From Lachnospiraceae bacterium AC2031 (lineage in GTDB: Bacteria; Bacillota; Clostridia; Lachnospirales; Lachnospiraceae): a stretch of DNA of 64,000 bases. The notes under the pieces were generated by a model. That model saw only the letters and a program-made list of their open reading frames with translations. It was not told the DNA's origin and did not search any database. Position numbers and translations under genes: made by a program. Position 1 is the first letter of the stretch; every line of letters starts with the position of its first letter. This document shows, one piece after another, positions 54,847 to 64,000 of this stretch. Location: assembly GCA_000687975.1 (NCBI GenBank), contig JIAB01000001.1:2890001-2954000 (forward strand). Reading direction: 5' to 3'.

Positions 54847-54862
54847 TGAGGGGATGAGGGGG

Positions 54863-55891
54863 ATGGAATTAGTAACAAGGAGCAAACGACCAGGAATGAA
54901 ATGTTCTCTGGATGTTTTCTATGATCATACAAAAGGCTTTTCCAAGTACATAAATGATAAGACTATGTATAAGATTATGCTGCTTCGTTCAGGCTCTTTT
55001 GTCTACGAAGATGAAGGGAAATATAGGCTTGTACATGCGCCAGCTTCGCTTGCTCTAAGTGAGAAGGCTGAGTTTAATGTGCTCTCAGAAAGTGACGTGG
55101 AAGTGAGAACAGTCTTCTTTAAACCATCCATTATCAGAGAAGAGTTTACGTATGAGGCAATAGACTCAGGAATATATGATAAGTTTCTTAGTGCTGTGCA
55201 GGGGACAGAAGAGATGTCCTTTGATCAAAAGTTGGGTTATGCAACTGGAGCGGATATTAAGTTCGAAGACTCTTTTTCAAACAATATGATATATCAGGAT
55301 GCACTGTATGTGCTTCAGTTTAAGTGGCGTAATAAAGATAACATTCATAACCTACTAACAAGACAGGAGTACGATACATTACGACGCTTGTTCCTCAGTA
55401 TAGAATATGAGATAAATGAACAGCCGGATAATTTCTGGATCCTGCGTACCAGACACTTTATAACATCCATTCTTTTTATGGAATATGACTTTTATAGAAA
55501 TAACAGACAGGATGATATTTACGATAATCCTCTAGTGGCTAGAGTAAGCAGGTATTTTTGGGATAAGCTCAGTGATGAGATAACTCTGTCTGATGTTTTA
55601 AAGGAATTTTCGGTAAATAAGAACACGCTGAATGAAGCGTTCTATAATGAGTTAGATATGTCATGTATGGCATATCTGGAACAGATGAGAGTAAATATTG
55701 CAAAGTATTTCCTTCAATTTTCAGATTACTCAGTCAGTTATATCAGCGAGATGTGTGGGTATAACGATACCAATTATTTCACAAAGGTTTTCAAAAAGCA
55801 TACAGGTATGACAGCATCTGAATTTCAGAAACAGGTTAGAGGTAGAGATATGTCCGAGAGCGTAAAAAAACTCATGGAACCTGACAACTAA
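54863..55891 (+). CDS. AraC-family transcriptional regulator
   Basis: The 342-residue protein has an N-terminal beta-rich sensor region without a clear cupin signature, a helical dimerisation segment (about 155-225), and a C-terminal AraC DNA-binding domain (LSDVLKEFSVNKNTLNEAFYNE ... SYISEMCGYNDTNYFTKVFKK). GAGGGG lies 9 bases before the ATG at 54863; ATG 54854 is an alternative. The gene directly upstream of the signalling cluster has 21-bp direct repeats at its promoter, so autoregulation or control of the cluster is possible. Confidence 0.88.
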   Translation: MELVTRSKRPGMKCSLDVFYDHTKGFSKYINDKTMYKIMLLRSGSFVYEDEGKYRLVHAPASLALSEKAEFNVLSESDVEVRTVFFKPSIIREEFTYEAIDSGIYDKFLSAVQGTEEMSFDQKLGYATGADIKFEDSFSNNMIYQDALYVLQFKWRNKDNIHNLLTRQEYDTLRRLFLSIEYEINEQPDNFWILRTRHFITSILFMEYDFYRNNRQDDIYDNPLVARVSRYFWDKLSDEITLSDVLKEFSVNKNTLNEAFYNELDMSCMAYLEQMRVNIAKYFLQFSDYSVSYISEMCGYNDTNYFTKVFKKHTGMTASEFQKQVRGRDMSESVKKLMEPDN

Positions 55892-56010: not shown

Positions 56011-56385
56011 ATGACAGTTCAGGAACTGTATCAGAATATTGGCGGCGACTACGAGCAGGCCATCAGAGTGTTACGCATAGATAAACTGTTGGATAAGCAT
56101 ATAAGAAAGTTCAGGTCAAATGGGGTTATAGACCAGCTTCTTACTGCAGGAGAAACTATGGATCCCAATGCTCTTTTTGAAGCAGCTCATGCTTTAAAAG
56201 GTGTTTCAGCAAATCTTGGATTGACACATCTTTCGGATGCGGCTTCGGAGATTACTGAAGAGTATCGTCCTGGAAATGTCAGAAGACTAACTGACGATGA
56301 AGTAAAAGCAAGACTTCAGTCTATACAAGAGATGTATGAACGTATAGTAAAAGGGGTTTTAGAATATGAGGAGTCTTGTGAATAA
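56011..56385 (+). CDS. Histidine phosphotransfer (HPt) protein
   Basis: The 124-residue four-helix HPt domain has the phospho-acceptor His H60 in AAHALKGVSANLGL. A stand-alone HPt normally relays phosphate from a hybrid kinase receiver to a final response regulator. The hybrid kinase gene starts 40 bases downstream, so the two should form one relay; no output regulator is encoded in between. GGGAAGGA precedes the ATG. Confidence 0.92.
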   Translation: MTVQELYQNIGGDYEQAIRVLRIDKLLDKHIRKFRSNGVIDQLLTAGETMDPNALFEAAHALKGVSANLGLTHLSDAASEITEEYRPGNVRRLTDDEVKARLQSIQEMYERIVKGVLEYEESCE

Positions 56386-56424: not shown

Positions 56425-59283
56425 ATGGGGATTACATCAAAGGGAGAAGGAATCTCTTCTGAAAAAAAGAAATATCTGGGTGTTCTTGGGGCCTGGGCAC
56501 TGGCTTTTGGCTGTAGTGTTGGCTGGGGCTCTTTTGTAATGCCAGGAACAACCTTTCTTCCAATAGCGGGACCAATCGGTACTGCTGTCGGTCTAAGCCT
56601 TGGTGGGCTTGTTATGCTGCTACTCGCAGTAAATTACCATTATCTTATGAATAAATATCCAGATGGCGGTGGTGCCTATACATATACGAAGCTTGCCTTC
56701 GGGTATGACCACGGCTTTGTTAGTGCGTGGTTTCTTATACTTACCTACATAGCGATTATCTGGGCAAATGCTACGGCTCTACCTCTTATCATGAGAACAA
56801 TCATTGGAGATACATTTCAGATTGGTTATCTTTATGAGATAGCTGGCTATCCAATCTATGTTGGTGAATTGTTTCTTGCTATAGGAGCGCTTATACTTGC
56901 GGCTCTTGTGTGTCTTTATAGAAAGCCGGCTGAGTGGACTCAGATAATTATGGCGGTTCTTCTTTTTGGTGGTGTTGTTATATGTTTTGCGGCAGCTTCA
57001 GGAAAGCTTGGCGTTGGAGGATATACACCAGCCTTTGCAGAAGATAAGAGTGCTTCGGCTGGAGTGTTCACTATCTTTGCTCTTGCTCCTTGGGCGTTTG
57101 TTGGTTTCGAATCCATCTCTCATAGTTCTGCTGAATCCAAGTTTTCACTAAAGAAATCATTTGGAATACTTGCAGTATCAGTTATAACTGCAACACTTGC
57201 TTATGTATTTCTTACGCTTATGGCTGTAAAGGCTCTTCCGGATGGTTGCAATTCATGGGTGGATTATGTAAGAAACCTTGGGGATTATTCAGGCGTTGCT
57301 TCCCAGCCTACATTTCATGCGGCATATGCTGCTTTGGGAGAGACTGGAAGACTGATACTTGGAGCTGCAGCGATGGGAGCTATATTTACAGGGCTTATAG
57401 GTAACTATATAGCTCTTAGTCGTCTTATTGATTCTATTGCTGAGGATGGACTCTTTCCAAAGTGGTTTGGAGTGAAAAGAGGTATGGTACCTAGAAATGC
57501 TATTCTCGCAATCCTTGTTGTTTCTGCTATATTTCCTTTTCTTGGTCGAACAACCATTAGCTGGATAGTTGATGTTACGACCATAGGTGCGACTATCGCC
57601 TATGCGCTGGCTTCAGCATCTGCATATAAGACTGCAAAGGATGAGAAGAATAGTTATTTTATGTTCTTTGGATTTGTTGGAATAGTTGTGTCAGTTCTTT
57701 TTGCTCTTGCGTTCTTGATACCGAATATTTTTTCGATAACAACACTATCTACGGAATCTTACCTTATACTTTCAATCTGGAGTATTTGTGGACTTCTGTA
57801 TTTTCGTATCTTTCTTAGTGTGGATCATCAGCGTCGTATGGGCAAATCCATCGTGGCATGGGTAGTCCTCTTAGGACTTATTATATATACCTCCAGTATC
57901 TGGATGCACCAGACTATAGGATCAGCCCTGGTGAAGTATGAAAATAACACCGACAAGATTGCTAAATCAGTTCATACAGCTAGTCATATACAGCTTATGC
58001 TCATTATCTTTTCTCTGATCATTCTTCTCAATATATATGGGATCATGCAGAAAAGAGAGAAGACTATCGAAGTTGAGAAAGCACGTGCTGAAAAAACCAG
58101 TCAGGCTAAGTCTAGCTTTTTATCTAATATGAGCCATGAGATCAGAACACCTATGAATGCGATTATAGGACTTCAGAAGCTTGCTCTGAAGGATCCTGAG
58201 TTGAAGCCTGAGACCAGATCTAGTCTTGAAAAGATTGGTGCCAGCGCAAACCATTTGCTTGGACTGATAAATGATATTCTTGATATGAGTCGTATCGAAT
58301 CAGGAAGGATGCAGGTCAGGAAAGAAAAGTTCGATTTTCACGAGCTTCTGAACCAGGTATCTACAATAATAGAAGGACAGTGTCAGGATAAGAGATTGAA
58401 ATATGAATGTAATATCATTGGCGAGGTAAAAGATCATTACGTAGGCGACAGTCTTAAGCTGAGTCAGGTAATGATCAATATTCTTGGAAATGCAGTTAAG
58501 TTTACTAATACCAGGGGAAGTGTTTCACTTACAGTTGAACAGCTTGAAGAACAGGATGATGTATGTAAGATGAAGTTTATCATGAAGGATACAGGAATTG
58601 GTATGGACCCAGAATATATTCCTAAGATCTTTGATACCTTCTCTCAGGAGGATGCCAGCAATACTAACATATACGGTGGAAGTGGTCTTGGAATGGCTAT
58701 TACAAAGAATCTTGTTGGGATGATGGACGGCGAAATATATGTTGAGAGTAAGAAGGGAGAAGGGTCCACATTTACAGTAATTGTTCCGCTTGGTCTTATA
58801 AATGAGACTGTAGCAAATGATGAATCTGAAAAACATATTGAAGAATCATTTAGTGGAGAAGAGATAACTGAGATTCTCTCAGGAAAGAGAGTTCTTATGG
58901 CAGAGGATGTAGAGCAGAATGCGGAGATTCTTACAGACCTTCTGGAGCTTGAGGATATTATCTCAGCCAGGGCGAGAAATGGAGAAGAAGCGGTGATGAT
59001 GTTCTCGAAGAGTGAGCCAGGATTCTATGCGGCCATACTTATGGATGTAAGAATGCCAGTGATGGATGGATTAGAGGCGACTCGCACCATACGTAAGCTG
59101 GGACATCCAGATGCTAAGACTATTCCTATCATTGCGATGACTGCAAATGTATTTGATGAAGATGTGGAACGCTCTATGGAAGCAGGAATGAATGCACATC
59201 TTTCAAAGCCTGTAGAGCCTGATAGATTATATGAAACTATGGCAAGACTGATTAAAGAACAAACTGCCGGGGAGGTGGATTAA
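56425..59283 (+). CDS. APC-type transporter fused to hybrid histidine kinase/receiver
   Basis: The 952-residue protein has an N-terminal amino-acid-polyamine-organocation permease-like domain of about 12 membrane helices (about 15-480). Its first helix is GAWALAFGCSVGWGSFVMPG, followed by PDGGGAYTYTKLAFG and FALAPWAFVGFESISHSSAE. One or two further helices and a coiled linker lead to a HisKA domain with His H571 in SNMSHEIRTPMNAIIGLQ. A HATPase domain with NAVKF, DTGIGM and GGSGLGMAITKNLV follows. The C-terminal receiver has phospho-acceptor Asp D874 in ILMDVRMPVMDG. Either a working permease that also signals, or a permease fold reused as a sensor of amino acids, is plausible. The following SBP-GGDEF gene starts one base after the stop. 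Confidence 0.9.
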   Translation: MGITSKGEGISSEKKKYLGVLGAWALAFGCSVGWGSFVMPGTTFLPIAGPIGTAVGLSLGGLVMLLLAVNYHYLMNKYPDGGGAYTYTKLAFGYDHGFVSAWFLILTYIAIIWANATALPLIMRTIIGDTFQIGYLYEIAGYPIYVGELFLAIGALILAALVCLYRKPAEWTQIIMAVLLFGGVVICFAAASGKLGVGGYTPAFAEDKSASAGVFTIFALAPWAFVGFESISHSSAESKFSLKKSFGILAVSVITATLAYVFLTLMAVKALPDGCNSWVDYVRNLGDYSGVASQPTFHAAYAALGETGRLILGAAAMGAIFTGLIGNYIALSRLIDSIAEDGLFPKWFGVKRGMVPRNAILAILVVSAIFPFLGRTTISWIVDVTTIGATIAYALASASAYKTAKDEKNSYFMFFGFVGIVVSVLFALAFLIPNIFSITTLSTESYLILSIWSICGLLYFRIFLSVDHQRRMGKSIVAWVVLLGLIIYTSSIWMHQTIGSALVKYENNTDKIAKSVHTASHIQLMLIIFSLIILLNIYGIMQKREKTIEVEKARAEKTSQAKSSFLSNMSHEIRTPMNAIIGLQKLALKDPELKPETRSSLEKIGASANHLLGLINDILDMSRIESGRMQVRKEKFDFHELLNQVSTIIEGQCQDKRLKYECNIIGEVKDHYVGDSLKLSQVMINILGNAVKFTNTRGSVSLTVEQLEEQDDVCKMKFIMKDTGIGMDPEYIPKIFDTFSQEDASNTNIYGGSGLGMAITKNLVGMMDGEIYVESKKGEGSTFTVIVPLGLINETVANDESEKHIEESFSGEEITEILSGKRVLMAEDVEQNAEILTDLLELEDIISARARNGEEAVMMFSKSEPGFYAAILMDVRMPVMDGLEATRTIRKLGHPDAKTIPIIAMTANVFDEDVERSMEAGMNAHLSKPVEPDRLYETMARLIKEQTAGEVD

Positions 59284-59284
59284 A

Positions 59285-62200
59285 TTGCGATATAAAAAGA
59301 ATACGAAAAGGTTGATAGTGGTCCTCCTGCTGCTGGCAATGGTGATAAGCACTCTGACGTCATTTACAGTTCGGGCTGAGGAAAAAGAACATAAGGTGGT
59401 ACGTGTCGGCTGGTTTGATTCGTCCTTTAATTATTTTGATGAATTTGGAAGACGATGCGGTATAGATTATGAATATCAGCAGAAGATATCTGCGTATACG
59501 GGCTGGACTTATGAGTATGTTGAGGATAGCTGGCCAAATCTTCTTGAGATGCTTAAAAAAGGAGAGATAGATCTTCTTAGTGACGTTTCTTATAAAGAAG
59601 AACGCGAAGAATATATGTTATACCCGGATCTTCCGATGGGTACAGAATCATATTATATCTTTATAAGTGCAGACAATAGAGAGATAAATATTGAGGATAT
59701 TACGTCACTAGATGGAAAGAAAATTGGTGTAAATAAAGGCAGTATTCAGGAAGGCTTCCTAAAGGATTGGGCTGATAAATATGAAATCCATATCGAAATA
59801 ATACCGCTTACTGTACATGAGGCTGAATCCATGGATATGGTGTTCAGTGGGGAAATTGATGGATATGCGACAATCTATGACTTCGAAGCAGAACAGGAAG
59901 TGATTCCATTTTGCAGGATCGGTGGTTCTGATTATTACTATGCTGTAAATAAGGACCGCGAGGATCTTTTATCAGAGCTTAATATGGCTCTTTCTCAGAT
60001 ACAGTCTGATGATCCATATTTTAATCAGAAGATATCTGATGATCGTCTTTATGGTGACAATATCAATGCTATTCTTTCATCCTCTCAGGAGGAGTGGATC
60101 AGACAGCATGGCACTATTCGTATAGGTTATAGAGATGATTATCTACCTTTCTGTGATGAAGATAATGAAACAGGAGAACTGACAGGTGCACTTAAGGATT
60201 ATCTTGCTCACGCAGAAAATACGTTGGATAGTAGTTATGTAGAATTCGAGACCATATCTTATGATTCAACAAAAGATGCCCTTGCTGCTCTTGAGGCAGG
60301 GGAAGTAGACTGCATATTCCCTGTATATTTCAGCACCTATGATGCAGATCAGCAGGGTATAAGACTTACAGATGCGGCTATGAAAACTGAGATGGTTGCC
60401 ATCATGCGAGAGTCAGATGACAGACGTCTGTCAAAGAGTAGTGACATGACGATGGCAATAAATGATGGAATGATGAACATAGAAACCTTTATTAAGGATG
60501 AGTATCCACTGACTGAAAGAATTCCGTATACGGGTCTTGATAAGTGCTACAAGGCTGTAGCAAATAATGAGGCTGATAGTGTACTTGTCAGCAGTTATAG
60601 GATTCTTCCTGCACAAGATACTCTGGATAAGTATAATCTTTGTTCAGTACCTACAGGAGAGTCTATGCCATTTTCCTTTGGCGTAAAGAAATGGGATACC
60701 GAGCTTTACTTCCTTCTAAACAAAACGGTTAAGACTACAAATAATGAGGATATGGATGCAGCCCTTGCATCTTATATGAAGGTTGATTCAAAGATCTCCT
60801 ATATGAAGTTTTTTAAGGACAACTGGCTTTTAGTTGTTAGTCTTCTCACAGTAGTTTTTGCTGTAGTTATAATCCTTCTTGTTCAAAAGATGAATGCTGA
60901 GCGTACTGCTGCAAAACAGAGACGTCTTCTTATGGAGGCAGAGGAGATAGCTGATCTTAAGCAGACTATTACGTCCCTTCTTGATAATATGCCAGGTATG
61001 AATTATACAAAGGATGCAGAGACAGGTGAATATCTTGCCTGCAATCAGACGTATGCTGAGTACACCAACAAAAAGGATCCGTCAGAAGTTTTTGGTCATA
61101 CAGCAGAGGAACTTTTTGATAGCGAGACCGCAAAACGTATTAATGAAGATGACAAGGTGGCACTGTCCATGGATGGACCATATGTATTCTTTGATGAAAT
61201 GAAGAAGAGTGATGGAACTACCATTCAGACTAAGGTAACTAAGCTTAAATATACTGATGATAAAGGTCGTCTTTGTCTTCTTGGTATGCTTCAGGATGTT
61301 AGTGATACTTTCCGAATATCCAGAGATGATGCAAAAACAAAGGATTCCTATGAAAAAGCAAGGAACAGTGGTTTTATTTTCTCAAACATAGCCCAGGCTC
61401 TGGCTTATGGGTATCTGAATATATATTACATTGATGTCAATACTGAGGAATTTATAGAGTATCGAAATATACCTGGGAAAAATGGACTTACTGAATTACG
61501 ACGTGGATGGCATTTCTTTGAGGCGTGTGTAGATGAGATTGAAGAATTTGTTTATCCAGAGGATAAGGAAGCAGTGATAAAAGCCATGGATCGTAAGACT
61601 CTTGTGGCGGCACTGGAACAGAATGATACATTTATGATGACCACTAGAATCTTTAGAGATGGCGTACCTAGGTATGTGAGTGTGAATGCAACCCGTATGC
61701 AAGAGGATGATCGATATATCATCCTAAGCCTCACTGATGTAGATGAAGAGGTAAAACAACGTAATGCAGCTCAGAAGATGCTTGAAGAGCAGGTTGCTTA
61801 TGACAGAATTACAGCTCTTGCTGGTGAATTCTTTGGTATCTATGTTGTTGATCCTGAGACAGGACAGTACCGTGAGTTTAGTGCAACTGCAGGGTTTAAT
61901 GCATTTGAACTTCCAAGTGAAGGAAAGGACTTCTTTGAAACAGCAAGAAATCATGCGCTTTCTGTTGTTTATCAGGAAGATCAGAATAGATTTCTTTCTA
62001 TGCTTTCAAGAGACAATGTTCTTTCAGAGATTGAGCAGAGTGGAATCTTCACACTTAGCTATCGTTTGTTAACAGATGGAGAACCTCGTTATGTTCAGCT
62101 TAAAGCTGCTATGATCGAAGAACAGGAAGGAACTCGACTAATAGTTGGTATAAATGATATCGATGCTCAGGTTCGTCAGGAAGAAGAGTATGGACGTCGT

Positions 62201-62689
62201 CTTGCTCAAGCTCGTATAGAAGCAAATATTGATGCACTGACAGGTGTTAAAAATAGAAATGCTTATCGTGTATATGAGGAAAGGATCAATGCACAGATAG
62301 ATGTTAATCGTGCACCTGAATTTGCTATTACTATTCTTGATGTAAATGATCTAAAGAAGGTAAATGATACTCAGGGACATAAGGCAGGAGATCAGTATTT
62401 AAGAGATGCATGTAGGATTATATGTTCCACATTTAAACGAAGCCCAGTGTTCAGAGTGGGTGGAGATGAATTCTGTGTTCTGTCTCAAGGTGATGATTAT
62501 GCACGTATCGATGAGCTTATAGAAATGATGAATGCTCATAATGATGATGCTATAGAAAATGGTGGAATCGTTATAGCTGTTGGTATGGCTAGATATGAGA
62601 AGGAATCTACCGTGGCTCCTGTTTATGAGAGAGCGGATCAGACAATGTATGAGAACAAGACTGGTCTTAAAGCTAGAAAAAAAGGATAG
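59285..62689 (+). CDS. Dual solute-binding-domain sensor diguanylate cyclase
   Basis: The 1134-residue protein has a signal peptide, then two consecutive family 3 (amino-acid-type) solute-binding domains outside the membrane (about 35-255 and 265-500; VVRVGWFDSSFNYFDEFG and TIRIGYRDDYLPFCDE). A membrane helix (about 513-535) leads to a PAS domain (LDNMPGMNYTKDAETGEYLA), two of the PAS-like repeats found in the EAL protein at 38864, and a GGDEF domain with intact RVGGDEF (1059-1063). It should convert extracellular ligand binding into cyclic-di-GMP. The TTG start at 59285 has GGAGGT 7 bases upstream and is coupled to the transporter-kinase gene. Confidence 0.9.
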   Translation: MRYKKNTKRLIVVLLLLAMVISTLTSFTVRAEEKEHKVVRVGWFDSSFNYFDEFGRRCGIDYEYQQKISAYTGWTYEYVEDSWPNLLEMLKKGEIDLLSDVSYKEEREEYMLYPDLPMGTESYYIFISADNREINIEDITSLDGKKIGVNKGSIQEGFLKDWADKYEIHIEIIPLTVHEAESMDMVFSGEIDGYATIYDFEAEQEVIPFCRIGGSDYYYAVNKDREDLLSELNMALSQIQSDDPYFNQKISDDRLYGDNINAILSSSQEEWIRQHGTIRIGYRDDYLPFCDEDNETGELTGALKDYLAHAENTLDSSYVEFETISYDSTKDALAALEAGEVDCIFPVYFSTYDADQQGIRLTDAAMKTEMVAIMRESDDRRLSKSSDMTMAINDGMMNIETFIKDEYPLTERIPYTGLDKCYKAVANNEADSVLVSSYRILPAQDTLDKYNLCSVPTGESMPFSFGVKKWDTELYFLLNKTVKTTNNEDMDAALASYMKVDSKISYMKFFKDNWLLVVSLLTVVFAVVIILLVQKMNAERTAAKQRRLLMEAEEIADLKQTITSLLDNMPGMNYTKDAETGEYLACNQTYAEYTNKKDPSEVFGHTAEELFDSETAKRINEDDKVALSMDGPYVFFDEMKKSDGTTIQTKVTKLKYTDDKGRLCLLGMLQDVSDTFRISRDDAKTKDSYEKARNSGFIFSNIAQALAYGYLNIYYIDVNTEEFIEYRNIPGKNGLTELRRGWHFFEACVDEIEEFVYPEDKEAVIKAMDRKTLVAALEQNDTFMMTTRIFRDGVPRYVSVNATRMQEDDRYIILSLTDVDEEVKQRNAAQKMLEEQVAYDRITALAGEFFGIYVVDPETGQYREFSATAGFNAFELPSEGKDFFETARNHALSVVYQEDQNRFLSMLSRDNVLSEIEQSGIFTLSYRLLTDGEPRYVQLKAAMIEEQEGTRLIVGINDIDAQVRQEEEYGRRLAQARIEANIDALTGVKNRNAYRVYEERINAQIDVNRAPEFAITILDVNDLKKVNDTQGHKAGDQYLRDACRIICSTFKRSPVFRVGGDEFCVLSQGDDYARIDELIEMMNAHNDDAIENGGIVIAVGMARYEKESTVAPVYERADQTMYENKTGLKARKKG

Positions 62690-62695
62690 AAGAGT

Positions 62696-64000
62696 ATGTA
62701 TTATTCAACAATCGGTATATTGGCTGTAATAATATTATTCATAGTGAACTGGGATATACTCAAGGGGTTCAATGTTACTTACGATAAGCCTGCATGGAAT
62801 GTGTACAGGCGATTCCTTTATGCTGTCCTGATATATTATCTGACTGATATATTCTGGGGAATTCTTGAGAGTAGAAAACTAGTAACATCCCTCTTTATTG
62901 ATACAACTATTTACTTTGTTGCTATGGCGGTTGGTATATCCTTCTGGGCTGAATATACGGTTGCATATCTAGATGAGAAGACAAAGTTTGGAAAGTTCCT
63001 TATTTATGCAGGAAGAACTATTGCCATCACAATCACAGTAATGGTTATAGTAAATATATTTACTCCTGTACTTTTTACAGTTGATAAAGACTGCGTATAT
63101 CATGACCTTCCTATTCGTGACTTTATGCTGGTATGCCAGATCTGTATGCTTCTTGTCATTTCCATATATGCATTTGTTTGTATGTTCAAACTGGATAGTA
63201 CTGTTCCTAAGCGCACACGATATAAGATACTTGCCTCCTTTGGTTTTATTATGGCGCTTTGTCTTTTTATTCAGCTTTGGTTTCCTTATTTACCTATATA
63301 TTCTATTGCATATATGTTGGGAACTTGTCTTCTTCATTCATTCGTTGCTAATGATGAGAAGGAGGAAAGCAGGCGTCGTGAGGAGGAAGCAAAAAAGATT
63401 GAAGAACTTAAGGAAAGATTCGTATCCCTTCTTGATAATATGCCTGGAATGACATTTACCAAGGAAACAAGTACTGGAAAATATCTTGCCTGCAATCAGG
63501 AGTTTGCCAAGTATGCTCATAAAGCATCTCCTGAGGAAGTGGTAGGACTTACTGATGCAGAGATATTTGATAAAGAGACAGCGGCTCATTTTGTGGAGGC
63601 CGATAGACTTGCGATGTCTCTTAGTAAACCTTACATATTTTTTGAGGATGTACCTGATGCGGCTGGAAATCCAAGACAACTTCAGACAACAAAACTCAAA
63701 TATACAGATACTGCGGGAAGACAGTGCGTTCTTGGTATGTGTCAGGATGTAACGGATATGATACGTGTACAGCATGAACAGGCTATGACCAAGGAAGCTT
63801 ATGAGAATGCTGTTAGTTCAGGACTCATGTTTGCCAATATCGCCCAGACATTAGCTAGGGATTATATTGATATGTATTATATAGATGGGGATTCTGAAGA
63901 GTATATTGAGTATCAAAAGGGTGAGGAAGGTGACGCTCTTAAAGAAATTCGCAGGGGATGGCATTTCTTTAGTGATTGTAAGCTGGAGCTTTCTGAAAGC
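62696..64000 (+). CDS. Membrane PAS sensor protein, cut by window end
   Basis: The ORF starts at ATG 62696 (MYYSTIGILAVIILFIVNWD) and stays open for 435 codons to the last base. It has six to seven membrane helices (about 1-215), a coiled linker, a PAS domain (SLLDNMPGMTFTKETSTG) and the start of a PAS-like repeat (IDMYYIDGDSEEYIEYQKGE; RRGWHFFSDC). From the PAS domain on, it is clearly paralogous to the protein encoded just upstream, with the same order of domains. A GGDEF, EAL or kinase output beyond the window is likely. It lies 6 bases after the previous stop, so it belongs to the same operon. Confidence 0.85.
   Translation, partial: MYYSTIGILAVIILFIVNWDILKGFNVTYDKPAWNVYRRFLYAVLIYYLTDIFWGILESRKLVTSLFIDTTIYFVAMAVGISFWAEYTVAYLDEKTKFGKFLIYAGRTIAITITVMVIVNIFTPVLFTVDKDCVYHDLPIRDFMLVCQICMLLVISIYAFVCMFKLDSTVPKRTRYKILASFGFIMALCLFIQLWFPYLPIYSIAYMLGTCLLHSFVANDEKEESRRREEEAKKIEELKERFVSLLDNMPGMTFTKETSTGKYLACNQEFAKYAHKASPEEVVGLTDAEIFDKETAAHFVEADRLAMSLSKPYIFFEDVPDAAGNPRQLQTTKLKYTDTAGRQCVLGMCQDVTDMIRVQHEQAMTKEAYENAVSSGLMFANIAQTLARDYIDMYYIDGDSEEYIEYQKGEEGDALKEIRRGWHFFSDCKLELSES

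Follow-up and report, generated by a model that had tools for sequence, protein, structure and literature searches.

Does the open reading frame (ORF) at 56425..59283 (+ strand) of the DNA stretch analysed here encode a single sensor protein, an amino-acid permease joined to a hybrid histidine kinase, and what would a permease do in front of a kinase? The stretch, called the window below, consists of 64,000 nucleotides from Lachnospiraceae bacterium AC2031 (GenBank assembly GCA_000687975.1, contig JIAB01000001.1, positions 2,890,001 to 2,954,000 of the forward strand). Here we confirm that the ORF is a genuine fusion of an APC permease with a hybrid histidine kinase, and we lean, with some reserve, towards reading its product as a transporter-derived membrane receptor that would start a phosphorelay towards cyclic di-GMP (c-di-GMP) enzymes.

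The protein of 952 aa starts with ATG and is encoded by a single uninterrupted frame, within which the longest listed antisense ORF has 103 aa. From the ORF list, Pfam and a structural model, its order is APC permease, transmembrane helices (TM) 13 and 14, HisKA, HATPase and receiver (REC); these and all other window features given below lie on the + strand. The permease head, an APC domain of the LeuT fold, covers residues ~15-470 (56467..57834). Pfam matched AA_permease_2 (PF13520) at residues 18-434 (2.1e-22, 80.1 bits against a cut-off of 27) and AA_permease (PF00324) at residues 32-430 (8.1e-15, 54.9 bits against a cut-off of 24.6). These are followed by HisKA at 561-627 (58105..58305), HATPase_c at 674-789 (58444..58791) and Response_reg at 823-938 (58891..59238), each above its curated cut-off and each also placed by an alignment of histidine kinase (HK) fusions. 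Neither an SSF (SLC5) domain nor an ammonium transporter domain was matched by Pfam in the window protein at 0.001. Searched alone among solved structures, the permease part returned GkApcT and cationic amino acid transporters, to which a 26-row profile of the head added AdiC, a lysine permease and the LAT family. The best NCBIfam match of the isolated head was TIGR00909 (67.8 bits against a cut-off of 556.8), and all its NCBIfam matches were below cut-off. Residues 435-560 gave no Pfam match; two long model helices lie there, and no STAC profile was run by itself. STAC is reportedly the subject of Korycinski et al. 2015.

An original prediction, made from the DNA letters and their translations, had placed H571 in a HisKA domain and D874 in a receiver, called the kinase motifs intact, and set the APC-type fold apart from the solute:sodium symporter (SSS) class of CbrA. 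All of this was borne out: the domain search that it proposed found APC, HisKA, HATPase_c and REC, and the position of H571 is His in 90 and that of D874 Asp in 91 of 91 aligned HK fusions (the 97 HK fusions minus five cut by contig ends and L118). The possibility that the N-terminal part is not APC-like falls away, as this part is APC-like both in sequence and in its modelled fold. So does a frameshift, chimera or assembly join of two genes, which is ruled out by relatives that carry the same fusion on other contigs and whose probability we put at practically nil. Fusions at loci L082, L083, L085 and L152 share 72-75% identity with the window protein, and 76 of 80 scanned loci carry a signalling fusion. 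In three of the other four the contig stops before the output domain is reached. The fourth, L106 (L106:7998-11176), does speak for a join: in this assembly, made from uncultured material, head and kinase are separated, and the stretch from TM14 to the HisKA motif has seemingly been deleted with a change of frame, probably as an assembly or strain defect.

These 80 loci are the best of at least 580 relatives confirmed in a scan of species genomes. They were picked by their likeness to an alignment containing the TM13-TM14 coupler and are not a random sample; they are related to each other, and counts among them are not independent events. Their labels include Lachnospiraceae, Ruminococcaceae or Oscillospiraceae, Selenomonadaceae, Erysipelotrichaceae, Coriobacteriaceae and Atopobiaceae, of which single ones may be wrong because most of the loci are metagenome assemblies; ruminant-gut sites are named in many of the record titles. 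A family survey of 299 genomes, in which every permease match with an open frame of >600 aa was retrieved, gave 47 genomes that match the permease part at 1e-20 and 21, the window's own included, with at least one signalling fusion (26 fusions altogether). The own genome holds one permease-part match at 1e-20. In a phylum survey of 398 genomes, 23 matched at 1e-40, and frames of >800 aa were found only in four (the own genome, G261, G327 and G656). At most four candidates per genome were scored in the family survey and at most three in the phylum survey, so these tallies may be low.

Altogether, 128 permease frames were examined, of which 106 are signalling fusions. Domain labels of the counted frames and their neighbours come from purpose-built hidden Markov models; Pfam was run on 10 permease fusions, six neighbouring frames and the other six fusions to an iron-containing alcohol dehydrogenase (Fe-ADH). 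The kinase versions are APC-HK-REC (55 frames, as in the window), APC-HK-REC-REC (37), APC-HK (4, three of them cut by contig ends) and APC-HK-HK-REC (1). The cyclase versions are APC-GGDEF (5, two of them cut), APC-GGDEF-REC-GGDEF-EAL (3) and APC-PAS-GGDEF (1). Permease only was assigned to 22 frames, namely nine standalone permeases, L106, eight Fe-ADH fusions, for which there was no partner model, and four cut frames. The first GGDEF domain keeps its GGDEF signature in eight of the nine direct cyclase fusions, the ninth being cut at that point; in the three EAL versions the second GGDEF domain has lost it. One head on kinase, cyclase and cyclase/phosphodiesterase outputs fits what is expected of an input module.

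Some loci hold more than one such head. Three consecutive permease-headed proteins (HK-REC-REC, GGDEF-REC-GGDEF-EAL and GGDEF) stand at L100:4225-17737, L109 has two with different outputs, and L095 is also such a cluster; the clustered heads possibly respond to several ligands, or to one ligand with opposite effects on c-di-GMP. Two receiver-less APC-HK genes lie in tandem in two genomes (L173:393-5382 and L174:6504-11406). The L173 tandem, in which one kinase has no usual R-T-P after its histidine, adjoins a CheB methylesterase-domain gene, and L174 has a gene of similar size there. A distant and distinct group of APC permeases (L071, L074-L080; 882-963 aa), different from the signalling fusions, is fused to Fe-ADH in 8 of the 299 family genomes, all eight confirmed by Pfam, and may represent a transport-enzyme fusion.

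The whole-protein model of the window protein was built on the 32-row alignment A2 (mean predicted local distance difference test score, pLDDT, 81.3; predicted template modelling score, pTM, 0.61). In this model TM1 and TM6 are interrupted, at 31-35 and 224-228 respectively, a feature of LeuT-fold carriers. Its top match by VIA-align was AdiC 3ob6_A (Z 41.0 over 418 residues at 2.8 Å, model residues 13-476), with two other AdiC entries at Z 40.0, and Foldseek gave TM-scores of 0.78-0.81 by target for AdiC and GkApcT. The original prediction of about 12 permease-type helices needs a correction, as two further membrane helices are predicted. In the model one spans 477-504; the other, a single helix at 509-588, comprises TM14 and continues into the DHp region. 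Residues ~471-548 (57835..58068) thus form a predicted coupler of TM13, a short outside loop and TM14, a region that could be aligned in alignment A1. A model of the L109 APC-GGDEF protein (760 aa, pLDDT 80.5) has the same layout, with helices at 489-532 and 537-607; the second extends as far as the border of the GGDEF domain. There, at 597-611, confidence drops below 50, and the output part was modelled with low confidence. As modelled, the kinase and cyclase versions have a common TM13-TM14 hairpin, with the second helix directed towards the output domain.

A hairpin of this topology resembles a simple two-TM sensor, and in alignment A1 its loop length differs among relatives. The head could then be mainly a membrane anchor, with the TM13-loop-TM14 hairpin or cytoplasmic contacts as the place where the signal enters, much as the CbrA kinase works without its transporter domain (PMC7096432). 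We regard this as quite improbable, since the head is more conserved than the hairpin (74-86% against 63-82% identity in four window pairs), many head residues are near-invariant, and the head is retained with every output domain.

The receptor reading is helped by the descent of the heads. A quick tree of 126 of the 128 heads, the short cut heads of L095 and L111 being omitted, united the fused heads in a single clade, which has 109 rows (105 fused, three cut and L106), with a Shimodaira-Hasegawa-like approximate likelihood ratio test (SH-aLRT) value of 100; the standalone heads nearest to it are L054 and L058. A careful tree of 71 of these 126 rows (omitted were L068, the three cut rows, L106, six of the eight Fe-ADH rows and 44 HK rows, L068 among them) supported the fused clade at 100/100, apart from the standalone permeases. 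Both trees were rooted on the Fe-ADH group. The careful tree needs three changes for HK and two for GGDEF, both forced by well-supported branches. With a single fused clade and such output changes, one fusion followed by output exchange is the simplest account; the trees suggest one signalling fusion and later exchange of outputs, in an order that is not proved.

Certain residues separate fused from standalone heads. Glutamate E229 is present in 105 of 105 fused heads, compared with eight Asp and one Gly in the nine standalone heads and Asp in 8/8 of the Fe-ADH type. W113 is found in 102 of the 105 fused heads, the standalone ones having five Pro, two Ala, one Ser and one Cys there. N327 occurs in 79/97 HK and 8/8 GGDEF fusions, and the standalone heads have Phe (9/9). 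In alignment A3, whose residue pairings come from sequence at ~20% identity, E229 pairs with AdiC E208, W223 with W202, N327 with W293, N115 with AdiC G100, and Q173 with both E. coli LysP K163 and AdiC Q151. Residues common to fused but not to standalone heads (E229 and, mostly, N327) were counted for a receptor. So was selection: dN/dS was 0.07-0.17 for the permease part and 0.06-0.19 for the kinase in the five of six pairs with finite dS, although dS was >1 or saturated in the window pairs and their ratios are rough, and the permease part appears to be under purifying selection like the kinase. The GxG region of the window head (G33-W34-G35) had been taken as a sign that substrate binding is retained; the G-W-G motif is equally present in 9/9 standalone permeases and 8/8 APC-Fe-ADH proteins and therefore says little on sensing.

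The standalone relatives have neighbourhoods of their own. In the stretch L058:2008-8967 the permease directly follows genes for an Fe-ADH, a predicted (2S)-3-sulfopropanediol dehydratase and the activase of the latter, and may carry a sulfonate or related solute. Genes that have a winged helix and a nucleotidyltransferase domain (L054:8979-10751 and L067:2763-3659) adjoin other standalone permeases, and the one in L054 is also choline-kinase-like. Because L058 and L054 point to unlike substrates, no ligand is named for the fused heads.

A head that is still a working transporter would make the window protein a dual-function transceptor of the CbrA type, in which uptake flux or occupancy sets the kinase. 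CbrA both transports histidine and bears a kinase (PMC7096432, PMC13022988), and the window model keeps a LeuT core in which TM1 and TM6 are broken; this, together with strong purifying selection, agrees with retained transport. Against it, the Na2-site lysine of proton-coupled relatives (K162 in P. aeruginosa LysP; PMC12764776) is replaced by Gln in the window (Q173) and in 87/97 HK fusions, and by Met or Leu in 7/8 GGDEF fusions. Gln at this site is also found in AdiC and 8/9 standalone relatives, so it speaks against proton symport and not against exchange; the use of this TM5 residue as proof of a dead transporter was dropped on the same grounds. Moreover, the position aligned with the AdiC gating residue W293 (PMC12764776) is Asn in 87/105 fusions. 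On balance we consider a working transceptor possible but unlikely.

The genes beside the fusion point towards a relay. An HPt protein of 124 aa (56011..56385; Pfam Hpt 2.7e-10), with H60 in AHALKG as read from the translation, is encoded 39 bases upstream of the fusion start and is the predicted phosphotransfer partner. The earlier proposal that the fusion starts a phosphorelay is likely, given this adjoining gene. Of the HK fusions, 92 have 450 bases or more of DNA in front of them, and in 53 of these a same-strand HPt gene lies no further than 500 bases upstream. For 80 HK fusions the upstream DNA reaches 2500 bases or more; HPt plus REC-GGDEF(-EAL) is present there in 33, HPt alone in 11 and REC-GGDEF alone in 3, and the first of these numbers was counted for the relay. 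The order HK-REC, REC-GGDEF-EAL, HPt precedes the fusion in 25 of 69 HK fusions with at least 4500 bases upstream. On either side within ~6 kb, and with no length filter, 37 of the 97 have both partners, 19 HPt alone and 3 REC-GGDEF alone. The 44 REC-GGDEF-EAL frames at the loci keep EAL (43/44) and DDFG (43/44) and have a GGDEF-type signature in 0/44 (consensus there e-a-D-r-F), and they are accordingly predicted to be phosphodiesterases. In the own genome, a REC-GGDEF-EAL relative (52% identity) is paired with an HPt gene at ~1095231-1097260 (L193:10232-12261); no sensor gene lies directly beside this pair in the stretch read, and the pair is a candidate distant relay target.

Downstream, one base after the fusion, a TTG-started gene (59285..62689) encodes a protein of 1134 aa with two SBP_bac_3 domains, PAS and GGDEF by Pfam. 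Six bases later begins the gene of an 892-aa protein (62696..64000, extending past the window and read on L081) with PAS, HisKA and two REC domains and an N-terminal part that is membrane-like by eye. Both are probable operon members. The SBP-SBP-PAS-GGDEF gene also lies directly downstream in L082, L083, L085, L086, L088, L089, L090, L091 and L152, which makes 10 of the 97 HK fusions, the own included. The third operon protein (L081:11697-14375) has HisKA and two receivers with no ATPase-domain match in the own genome, L085 and L086 (887-892 aa), a loss that leaves it fit only for phosphotransfer; it keeps the ATPase domain in L082, L083, L088, L089, L091 and L152. An AraC gene upstream (54854-55891) had no counterpart at E <1e-30 at the other loci and was not counted as part of the system. 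In the gap between AraC and HPt no terminator-like site was found, and three promoter-like sites against 1.7 expected are uninformative.

In the receptor reading, a small solute would occupy the central cavity of the APC head. As a result the head would switch between its outward and inward states, and the TM13-TM14 hairpin would hand this movement on to the unbroken TM14-DHp helix, altering autophosphorylation of H571. Phosphate would then move from H571 to D874 and on to H60 of the HPt protein encoded upstream, which would pass it to the receivers of c-di-GMP enzymes, in many relatives a neighbouring REC-GGDEF-EAL protein. In the own genome the targets might be the receivers of the 62696 gene or, at 1.095 Mb, the REC-GGDEF-EAL/HPt pair that is not linked to the fusion.

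Several observations weigh against this reading. The strongest caution comes from the best-studied transporter kinase, CbrA: its activities were reportedly not significantly affected by its substrate histidine, and its SLC5 domain was reported as dispensable for kinase and phosphotransfer functions, though it modulates the autokinase (PMC7096432). TM13-TM14 is the least conserved part in three of the four window pairs. Neither HPt nor REC-GGDEF was found upstream in 33 of the 80 HK fusions with at least 2500 bases there (L055, L061 and L064 among them have both downstream), nor on either side within ~6 kb in 38 of 97. Finally, the REC-GGDEF-EAL relative of the own genome lies outside the fusion operon, at 1.095 Mb against 2.946 Mb.

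Taken beyond the window, the data incline us slightly to the view that gut anaerobes use the APC fold generally as an input domain that can be exchanged between signalling proteins. A single conversion from permease to receptor (E229, W113-A114 and, mostly, loss of the TM8 aromatic gate) would have given a head that drives both phosphorelays and direct c-di-GMP synthesis or breakdown, a class of nutrient receptor for c-di-GMP that the papers searched do not describe. The APC-headed fusions suggest a little-noticed class of nutrient sensor. The TM13-TM14 coupler, the HPt gene, the alternative outputs on this head and the neighbouring c-di-GMP genes had not been noticed in the original prediction. 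In a 2026 preprint CbrA still counts as a rare transporter-kinase (PMC13022988), and the way in which its transporter domain signals to the kinase is unsettled. With a larger set, in which one transporter-type head stands on several outputs, the readout of the LeuT-fold cycle becomes approachable through naturally swapped heads and outputs. Should the ligand prove to be an amino acid or amine of the gut, nutrient sensing would be linked to c-di-GMP in ruminant-gut anaerobes.

Searches confined to openly licensed PubMed Central papers listed none that describes a bacterial fusion of an APC-family permease with a kinase or cyclase; domain-architecture databases may already list it. AdiC, GkApcT and CAT1 have the same fold (Z 41.0 for AdiC) and homologous sequences, but are standalone and have neither TM13-14 nor an output domain. 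Yeast Ssy1 is an amino-acid permease used for signalling that is unfused to kinase or cyclase. Yeast Gap1 is another such permease in signalling, without kinase or cyclase fusion (cited in PMC11109136), and LysP, an APC permease, signals with the membrane regulator CadC, but as a separate, unfused protein (PMC12764776). Receptors of the S-component fold also link a transporter fold to receptors (PMC11109136); that fold is unrelated. The main text of a 2022 census of c-di-GMP input domains contains 'permease' and 'symporter' zero times and 'transporter' once (PMC8846402). SSF-HisKA proteins were, at first glance, not seen in Gram-positive bacteria, and SSS proteins with HATPase_c (plus GAF and PP2C_SIG) were found in Actinobacteria (PMC7918813). 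The Ks-Amt5 ammonium sensor kinase likewise uses a transporter fold as sensor, joined to a kinase without PAS, HAMP or STAC, but the fold is Amt/Rh and not LeuT, and other output domains are not mentioned for it in the available part of its source. Nearest in layout are CbrA and CrbS (MxtR), with a LeuT-type transporter domain N-terminal to a histidine kinase and, in MxtR, also a REC domain (PMC7918813, PMC13022988). Their head belongs to SSS (TC 2.A.21), another family of the APC superfamily, with 13 TM, STAC and PAS, whereas the window family has an APC head and a two-TM hairpin. Transporter-headed kinases are thus already known in CbrA, CrbS and Ks-Amt5, and the window family differs from them in its transporter family, its coupler and the range and exchange of its outputs.

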